From NCBI GenBank assembly GCA_020850945.1, contig JADZDR010000077.1:1-54981 (forward strand): DNA of 54,981 nt, given 5' to 3'. Of the stretch, positions 34,907 through 54,981 are shown piece after piece. The notes under the pieces were generated by a model. It worked only from the letters and a program-made list of their open reading frames with translations. It was not told where the DNA came from and did not search any database. How positions within the stretch are numbered: position 1 is the first letter of the stretch; the number at the start of each line of letters is the position of its first letter. The DNA comes from Acidimicrobiia bacterium (GTDB taxonomy: Bacteria; Actinomycetota; Acidimicrobiia; UBA2766). Position numbers and translations under genes: made by a program.

Positions 34907-35149
34907 GTGCGCTACATTCCGCATGTGTCTCAGGAACCCCAGGCGAAACGGTCACGATACACGCCGCCGTCGTCGCGCAAGGCGCTGCCGAGTCCACGCT
35001 GGTACGTGGGAATCGTGCTCGGCTGCTTCGTAGTCGGCGTCGCCATCATAATCGGCAACTACGTGAGCGGAGATGCCAACAACCTCCTCCTGATCATCGG
35101 CCTCATCCTCATCCTCGTCGGATTCCTCCTCGCGATGCGCCTGCGCTGA
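34907..35149 (+). CDS. crgA: Cell division protein CrgA
   Basis: An 80-residue (or 74 from GTG 34925) septal membrane protein that helps coordinate FtsZ and peptidoglycan synthesis in actinobacteria. The cytoplasmic KRSRYTPPSSRK motif is followed by two membrane helices (about 33-52 and 58-76), ending FLLAMRLR as in CrgA/UPF0233. GTG 34925 lies 7 nt after a TACATT -10-like hexamer and could be a leaderless start. Divergent from srtE with only 8 nt between starts, so the promoters overlap. Confidence 0.9.
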   Translation: MRYIPHVSQEPQAKRSRYTPPSSRKALPSPRWYVGIVLGCFVVGVAIIIGNYVSGDANNLLLIIGLILILVGFLLAMRLR

Positions 35150-35177: not shown

Positions 35178-35465
35178 GTGACCTGGCTCGGTGATCATCC
35201 CTGGCTTCTCGTACCCCTCGCCGTCCTCGTCGCGTACATCGTCATCCGCCTCGGCTTCGCCGCGCTCCACATGCTCGGGACCGAGATGGAGCGACCCACC
35301 TCCGATCCACCTCTCACGAAGGACGTCGAAGGTGACGACGTGCGCTACCGCTGCATCGTGTGCGCGACCGAGGTGCGCATGACGAAGATCGCCGACGACG
35401 ACTTCGAGCCACCCCGGCATTGCCGGGAGGACATGCAACTCGTCGTGGAGGCGGGCGACGCCTGA
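35178..35465 (+). CDS. Small membrane protein with a Cys/His cluster
   Basis: A 95-residue protein with one N-terminal membrane helix (about 8-28, PWLLVPLAVLVAYIVIRLG). The short cytoplasmic domain carries CIVCATEV and a later HCRED, which could form a small zinc site. GTG 35178 starts 28 nt after crgA, so the two may be co-transcribed. Family unknown. Confidence 0.65.
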   Translation: MTWLGDHPWLLVPLAVLVAYIVIRLGFAALHMLGTEMERPTSDPPLTKDVEGDDVRYRCIVCATEVRMTKIADDDFEPPRHCREDMQLVVEAGDA

Positions 35466-35495
35466 CACGGCGTGGCCAATTCGCGCGCTCTGTAC

Positions 35496-35549
35496 AGTGG
35501 TCCGACCACTTTGCGCGTTGTCCACAGGTGTGGACAACTCTGTGGGTAA
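35496..35549. promoter_or_regulatory. DnaA-box cluster with adjacent inverted repeat
   Basis: AGTGGTC (35496-35502) and GACCACT (35504-35510) form an inverted repeat. It is followed by TTGTCCACA (35518-35526), its exact inverse TGTGGACAA (35529-35537) and TGTGGGTAA (35541-35549, inverse of TTACCCACA). All three 9-mers fit the actinobacterial DnaA-box pattern, and the first two make a 20-bp palindrome around GG. The 212-nt gap between the crgA unit and the thiolase has no gene. It could be a DnaA-binding regulatory locus or part of an origin. Confidence 0.55.
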
Positions 35550-35677
35550 TGCCACGGATGAGATTCCCGAGGTGGGACTCCAATACGCGCGCGTGGCGTG
35601 GTGTACTGGGCAAAAGCCTGTGCACGGGCAGTGAACGCGGCGTGTGGCGGGGCGTCTCGCCCGGACGGACCGGCCCT

Positions 35678-36874
35678 TCAGAGGCGCTCGATGATGGTGG
35701 CGTTGGCCATGCCGCCACCCTCGCACATCGTCTGGAGGCCGAAGCGGCCATCCGTACGCTCGAGCTCGTTGAGGAGGGTCGTCATGAGGCGGGCGCCGGA
35801 TGCGCCGAGTGGGTGTCCGAGCGCGATCGCGCCCCCGTTCACGTTCACCTTCTCCATGTCGGCGTTGTGTTCCCGAGCCCACGCAGCCACTACCGGCGCG
35901 AACGCCTCGTTCACCTCGAAGAGGTCGATCTCGTCCATCTTCATGCCGGCTCGCTCGAGGACCTTCGTCGTCGCGGGGATGGGGCCACTCAACATGATCA
36001 CGGGATCGACCCCGGCGAGCGCGAACGTGTGGAAGCGGGCCCTGGGTCGCAGACCGAGCTCTTCCGCCTTGGTCTTCTCCATGATGAGGAGGGCAGACGC
36101 ACCGTCGGTGATCTGTGAGGAGTTCCCGGCCGTGATCACGCCGTTGGGGTCGAAGGACGGTTTGAGGCTCGCGAGCTTCTCGAGTGTCGAGTCGGGCCGG
36201 ATGCCCTCGTCCCGCGTCATCATCTCACCGGTCGCCTTGCCGTCCTGGTCACGTATCTCGACGGGCACGATCTCGTTCTCGTAGCGGCCTTCGTCCGTGG
36301 CGCGGGCAGCCCGCTTGTGCGATTCGACGCTGAGCGTGTCGAGCTCCTCACGGCTGATGCCCCACTTCTCGGCGATGATCTCGGCCGACGTGCCCTGCTG
36401 CACGAGGCCACCCTTGCCGTAGAGGTTCTTCTCCATGTACAGCTTGACCATCGAGCCCATGGGGAAGCCGGGCCCGTTCATCATCGACGCGCCCATCGGC
36501 ACGCGGCTCATCACCTCGACACCGGACGCGACGACGACGTCGTATGCACCCGCGATCACACCCTGCGCTGCGAAATGGGCGGACTGCTGTGAGGAACCGC
36601 ACTGGCGGTCGACAGATGTGCCCGGCACGCTCTCGGGATAGCCGGCGATGAGGGCGGACGCGCGCGCGATGTTGCCCGCCTGCTCGCCGACCTGCATGAC
36701 ACACCCCATGATCACGTCCTCGATGATCTCGGGGTCGATCCCGGTCCGCTCCACGAGGGCACGCAGCGGGACGGCACCGAGGTCTGCGGCATGCCATCCG
36801 GAGAGTTGGCCCGAGCCCGGCTTGCCCCGGCCGAGCGGTGTGCGTACGGCATCGATGATGACAGCTTCGCGCAT
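35678..36874 (-). CDS. Acetyl-CoA acetyltransferase (thiolase)
   Basis: A 398-residue thiolase catalysing acyl-CoA chain cleavage or acetoacetyl-CoA formation. The nucleophilic Cys92 is in SVDRQCGSSQQS, the His is in GGAIALGHPLGASG, and the second Cys is in MCEGGGMANA. ATG 36874 follows AGGAAGAACC. It is monocistronic. Sequences of this type (PGSGQLSGWHAADL near the N-terminus) are common in actinobacterial beta-oxidation or steroid degradation, so an FadA-type role is more likely than polyhydroxybutyrate synthesis. Confidence 0.94.
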   Translation of the reverse strand: MREAVIIDAVRTPLGRGKPGSGQLSGWHAADLGAVPLRALVERTGIDPEIIEDVIMGCVMQVGEQAGNIARASALIAGYPESVPGTSVDRQCGSSQQSAHFAAQGVIAGAYDVVVASGVEVMSRVPMGASMMNGPGFPMGSMVKLYMEKNLYGKGGLVQQGTSAEIIAEKWGISREELDTLSVESHKRAARATDEGRYENEIVPVEIRDQDGKATGEMMTRDEGIRPDSTLEKLASLKPSFDPNGVITAGNSSQITDGASALLIMEKTKAEELGLRPRARFHTFALAGVDPVIMLSGPIPATTKVLERAGMKMDEIDLFEVNEAFAPVVAAWAREHNADMEKVNVNGGAIALGHPLGASGARLMTTLLNELERTDGRFGLQTMCEGGGMANATIIERL

Positions 36875-54931: not shown

Positions 54932-54981
54932 TGGGGCTACGTGGACTCGAACCACGGACCTCATCCTTATCAGGGATGCGC
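54932..54981 (-). tRNA. tRNA-Ile (GAT), partial at window end
   Basis: Minus-strand tRNA whose 5' part lies outside the window. Visible are anticodon loop CTGATAA (anticodon GAT), T-arm CGTGG-TTCGAGT-CCACG and acceptor TAGCCCC with discriminator A. CCA is not encoded. Confidence 0.88.

Follow-up and report, generated by a model that had tools for sequence, protein, structure and literature searches.

The Mycobacterium tuberculosis gene Rv0011c, which we take to be crgA, borders a DnaA-binding site. In vitro the M. tuberculosis DnaA protein binds five regions, among them Rv0010c-Rv0011c, and the homologous site of M. smegmatis is occupied by DnaA in vivo (PMC7738170). Convergent mutations in clinical M. 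tuberculosis hit a palindrome situated 65 bp upstream of Rv0010c, and reconstructed palindrome mutants form longer cells and resemble dnaA mutants, in which the expression of both Rv0010c and Rv0011c is unchanged (PMC7738170). According to the same study the site has no obvious correspondence in other species. The high-affinity DnaA box of M. tuberculosis and S. coelicolor has the sequence TTGTCCACA (PMC4285127). The regulator McdR/ResR (Rv1830) recognizes the motif AATnACAnnnnTGTnATT, which was defined via DIP-seq, EMSA and mutation, and its known operators, e.g. that of whiB2, are found at promoters (PMC9040748).

Sites that act on DnaA itself are described for E. coli. The DARS1 and DARS2 sites release ADP from DnaA, while datA, which requires an IHF site between its boxes, promotes the hydrolysis of DnaA-bound ATP. 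Both datA and the E. coli titration clusters consist of DnaA boxes in non-coding gaps downstream of genes. For Streptomyces, Smulczyk-Krawczyszyn et al. reportedly described in 2006 clusters of DnaA boxes that lie outside oriC and influence replication. In the 9.2-Mb genome G061 of our set, which is presumably Streptomyces-like, we found several DnaA boxes 3' of crgA and no McdR box.

The stretch of DNA analysed here, called the window in the following, comprises 54,981 nucleotides and corresponds to contig C77 of a 3.9-Mb genome in 97 contigs, whose class is probably Acidimicrobiia. It carries crgA on the forward strand (34907-35149; Pfam CrgA PF06781, 42.4 bits, exceeding the cut-off), which encodes a cell division protein. 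On the same strand follows a small open reading frame of 95 amino acids with a CxxC pair (35178-35465), here called Zn95. This frame between crgA and a thiolase gene is conserved in the class and was found by tblastn in nearly all class loci; its protein matched no Pfam or NCBIfam family. The thiolase gene (acetyl-CoA acyltransferase, Pfam Thiolase_N and Thiolase_C), which forms the other flank in the class, occupies 35678-36850 on the reverse strand, where these coordinates denote the core and the listed reading frame possibly starts further upstream. The reading frames of both flanks end in the gap between them (35466-35677), such that the gap is of the convergent 3'-3' type. The first-pass annotation had described it as gene-free, and we likewise found no likely gene between 35466 and 35677, nor any promoter-like or terminator-like site. 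An Rfam search returned tRNAs only. The contig breaks off within a tRNA gene (54932-54981 of the window); if the gene order is the one usual in actinobacteria, gyrA and dnaA may come next.

The gap contains three DnaA boxes. Box 1 (TTGTCCACA, 35518-35526) is an exact match on the forward strand. Box 2, which reads TGTGGACAA and is an exact TTGTCCACA on the reverse strand (35529-35537), faces box 1 head-to-head. Box 3, which reads TGTGGGTAA and corresponds to TTACCCACA on the reverse strand (35541-35549), has one mismatch and is offset by 12 bp from box 2. The boxes are thereby ordered (+,-,-) with offsets of 0, 11 and 23 and span 32 bp in total, at just the positions given in the first-pass annotation. 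That annotation had also described boxes 1 and 2 as a 20-bp palindrome. This description holds, the palindrome being an interrupted one: two 9-bp arms enclose a central GG that is itself not palindromic. The window holds 6 single boxes with no more than one mismatch, versus 5.75 expected; boxes as such are not enriched. It is the arrangement that is rare: the (+,-,-) triad occurs once in the 55-kb window and never in shuffles of the crgA flanks. The palindromic pair TNTCCACA-N2-4-TGTGGANA has 3 copies in the 3.9-Mb genome, while a reversed control has none.

The genus-mate G001 retains all three boxes and their spacing. Box 1 and box 3 are kept, the counterpart of box 2 carries one substitution (TTTTCCACA), and the two central bases have changed; conservation between the two genomes centres on the boxes. 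The inverted repeat AGTGGTC-C-GACCACT, which had been noted before and is indeed present 7 bp from box 1 (35496-35510), is absent from G001. We therefore placed it outside the element and rejected it as a working part.

The flank of the boxes opposite to this repeat carries a second conserved feature, a McdR/ResR-type palindrome, which the first-pass annotation overlooked while recognizing the DnaA boxes. In most relatives the palindrome abutting the boxes matches AATnACAnnnnTGTnATT, i.e. their crgA gaps share the motif of the known McdR/ResR operators, although in these gaps it abuts DnaA boxes instead of sitting at a promoter. The window holds a degenerate copy (AATGCCA-CGGA-TGAGATT, 35548-35565), which deviates from AATnACAnnnnTGTnATT at 2 of 12 positions and overlaps box 3 by two bases (AA). 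This best match of the window, AATGCCACGGATGAGATT, has arms that are kept in G001; an exact AATnACAnnnnTGTnATT was not found in the crgA gap of the window. Read on the reverse strand, the window's element aligns without gaps to the elements of its relatives, and its palindrome is then collinear with their better boxes. Only the Zn95 frame separates crgA from the element (35518-35565), and in the window's genus Zn95 and the element form one block that is inverted with respect to the rest of the class.

For a comparison across genomes we scored 400 bp beside crgA at 31 loci of the class and 25 loci of other classes of the phylum. Other 400-bp segments of the same 3-kb loci served as controls (n=178 for the class and n=149 for the other classes). 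The segments of four loci (L006, L015, L020 and L021) were set by hand following the flips, and the box consensus as well as the spacing ranges were fixed after viewing the window and some relatives. Inverted box pairs with at most 3 mismatches were present in 20/31 class and 8/25 other-class gaps compared to 0/178 and 2/149 controls; these counts do not represent independent events, since genome relatedness is uncorrected and the controls stem from the same loci. With the same reservation, (+,-,-) triads with at most 5 mismatches occurred in 13 of the 31 and 11 of the 25 gaps (controls 0/178 and 2/149), and AATnACAnnnnTGTnATT with at most 2 mismatches in 19 of the 31 and 18 of the 25 (controls 3/178 and 0/149). 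The spacing of the boxes was near-constant among relatives, mostly 11 or 12 followed by 12. The cluster thus recurs beside crgA in the class and in the phylum, a conservation that the first-pass annotation had named as a check of its proposal, and its presence there exceeds chance.

In the class the element is placed between crgA and Zn95 or the thiolase gene; of 29 loci counted by eye, 27, among them the window, have it in a 3'-3' gap. In family f10 crgA is flipped and the element is found upstream of it. Genus g7 of family f5, whose genomes are small and A+T-rich (L005, L007, L008, L009 and L011), is without the element, which seems to have been lost there. In G002, a member of the same family as the window's genome, the crgA gap has no triad; its DnaA boxes form one large inverted repeat instead (L036:6234-6273).

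How closely the element resembles the M. tuberculosis site was seen from 80 named loci, nearly all of them mycobacterial. There a palindrome AATCACACGCGTGTGATT is typically followed by TTATCCCCA on the (+) strand, a box on the (-) strand and TGTGGATAA on the (-) strand. In this set AATnACAnnnnTGTnATT is found with at most 1 mismatch at 80/80 loci, versus 26/56 of the others. From the end of the palindrome to the start codon of the Rv0010c-like gene the distance is 65-66 bp (59 loci with a located start). H37Rv is not among the 80 loci, such that the published palindrome is equated with that of the loci by distance and context. The M. tuberculosis site and the element of the window share the position 3' of crgA and the three boxes in (+,-,-) order. 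Next to these boxes each has a palindrome, which in the window is a putative match to the AATnACAnnnnTGTnATT type. They differ in that the element of the window is inverted together with Zn95, has a degenerate palindrome and a convergent next gene, and in that its DnaA binding is predicted. The box offsets are 0, 10 and 23 in mycobacteria versus 0, 11 and 23 in the window, and with the palindrome placed first the middle box lies on opposite strands in the class and in mycobacteria. In layout and gene context the element of the window corresponds to the Rv0010c-crgA site of M. tuberculosis.

The palindrome itself (AATCACAC-NN-GTGTGATT) was previously viewed as degenerate DnaA boxes (PMC7738170). 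We dropped this reading because DnaA boxes are missing around most other copies, and whiB, smc, dnaE or mreB genes follow several of them; the published McdR motif fits instead. The palindrome in which M. tuberculosis mutations accumulate is probably a McdR box. At other loci of the phylum, McdR/ResR-type palindromes that match the motif exactly or nearly precede smc (L185, L194), dnaE (L239, L240), whiB (L193, L249) and mreB (L244), with gene names read from the translations, and another copy lies in the apparent whiB2-fbiA gap of a mycobacterium-like genome (L197). Such a placement fits a regulator of division and cell cycle, suggesting that the palindromes before replication, segregation and division genes mark an old cell-cycle regulon. 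In the source genome the candidate McdR, assigned by domain and position, is a MerR-type protein whose gene adjoins a BFN-domain gene on contig C22. Rv1830 has this placement, beside Rv1829. McdR-like boxes are found in the gap upstream of this MerR gene (C22:9123) and before a whiB-like gene (C25:15468). In two loci of other classes (L084, L089) and one of the class (L004) McdR-type palindromes flank the DnaA boxes on both sides.

The box order and orientation of the element are those of the E. coli DARS cores. As read from MG1655, the cores of DARS1 and DARS2 consist of three boxes in (+,-,-) order with offsets of 0, 14 and 26. Box I is thus opposite to boxes II and III, and boxes II and III are offset by 12, as in the window. 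The offset between boxes I and II differs (14 versus 11), as does the gene context, and an effect on ADP release is hypothetical. Upstream of dnaA the triad recurs with no McdR box beside it, both in the source genome (L034:8237-8268, contig C43) and in relatives (L066, L067, L069, L071, L073 and L074), always in the same orientation relative to dnaA. Hence the lineage uses this layout as a general DnaA module, and it is by itself no proof of reactivation. Given this recurrence and the deviating spacing between boxes 1 and 2, we did not assign the element to the DARS family and claim a common layout only. Like datA and the titration clusters, the element lies in non-coding DNA downstream of genes, while the box layout of datA is unlike that of the window. 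Of the options in the first-pass annotation, a locus that binds DnaA for titration or reactivation is supported by the conservation across the phylum, the DnaA-binding counterpart in mycobacteria (PMC7738170) and the box order of the DARS core. The site may be DARS-like or titrating, and possibly gated by McdR.

The other option raised in the first pass was an origin element; we weighed both an origin of replication and a part of a split oriC. DnaA boxes within a non-coding gap would suit an origin, and judged by positions, about 16-40 kb separate the crgA site from dnaA-type sites in some relatives. The dnaA gene, rightly expected outside the window together with dnaN, is located on contig C43 with parA, parB, rsmG, jag, yidC, dnaN, recF, gyrB and gyrA (names from translations), and has the separate box module upstream of it. 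Of the three genomic palindromic pairs, one lies just upstream of dnaA (C43:8238) and one in a ybjN-like/proC gap (C9:36007), where at least 5 DnaA-box-like 9-mers are densely packed (L064:7909-8037, about 35.9-36.0 kb of C9); a palindromic pair of G001 (C248:11553) may be the counterpart of this ybjN-like/proC group. In the closed genomes G005 and G026 dnaA is 336 and 222 kb away, and the sites are still found at crgA. The inversion of GC skew that an origin should show was looked for in G005, where the skew is weak: its sign goes from minus to plus at dnaA (4.68 Mb) and does not change lastingly at crgA (4.34 Mb). On gene context and skew we rejected the origin reading, which we regard as very improbable.

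Ordinary transcriptional control of crgA or a neighbouring gene by DnaA, alone or with McdR, deserves more weight and is still unlikely in our view. Both proteins are known regulators of transcription (PMC7738170, PMC9040748), the mycobacterial element precedes the Rv0010c-like start codon closely, and in family f10 the element is upstream of crgA. Against this stand the 3'-3' position of the element in all but two of the 29 class loci, the gap of the window with its lack of promoter-like sites, and the unaltered expression of Rv0010c and Rv0011c in M. tuberculosis dnaA mutants; the 3'-3' gaps and these expression data make promoter control unlikely. In particular a promoter of crgA is hard to reconcile with a site that almost all loci have on the 3' side of this gene. 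Since the gap is convergent and contains an inverted repeat, an RNA hairpin or a two-way terminator was also considered; we rejected it as even less probable than an origin. The gap has neither a terminator-like site nor a T-run, and the stem can form in full in only 8/26 orthologous pairs, with 3 compensatory changes versus 29 broken cells. Furthermore, the conserved letters are those of the DnaA box and the third box lies outside the repeat. A chance resemblance in a GC-rich gap would account for the single near-matches, which occur at the expected frequency, but not for the enrichment of the locus across the phylum over a very low background, nor for the conservation in G001 centred on the boxes; its probability is negligible.

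We therefore favour, as the likely explanation, a conserved DnaA-regulatory site outside oriC that corresponds to the M. tuberculosis Rv0010c-crgA site. In the source organism DnaA would bind the inverted pair of boxes 1 and 2 plus the tandem box 3 and form a small oligomer in a gap faced by no annotated promoter. The site would either hold DnaA or change its nucleotide state, as the E. coli DARS cores do, and could in this way tune the amount of active DnaA that reaches oriC. McdR, if it binds the abutting palindrome at crgA, would compete or cooperate with DnaA there, and their interplay would tie initiation to growth and division. More tentatively, and with less than even confidence, we propose that the crgA gap is an ancestral composite checkpoint of the phylum, made of a McdR/ResR box and a DnaA triad, at which occupation by McdR determines if DnaA is retained or set free, such that growth and division status sets initiation. 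A literature search that covered few subscription journals found no paper joining these subjects.

The control of DnaA activity outside proteobacteria and Bacillus is largely open. A site that is kept beside crgA in many genomes across the phylum, and for which a promoter role in the window is hardly conceivable, suggests that it is DnaA itself that is regulated. If the checkpoint proposal is true, the McdR box would mediate the effect of the mutations selected in the Rv0010c-crgA palindrome of M. tuberculosis, and the dnaA and resR pathways, which the papers found treat separately, would be joined. The abutting McdR-type motif offers a link between division control and replication that is concrete and testable, and a new view of a clinically selected hot spot. 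Probably the element is an ancient switch by which DNA replication is linked to growth and division, and not an origin.
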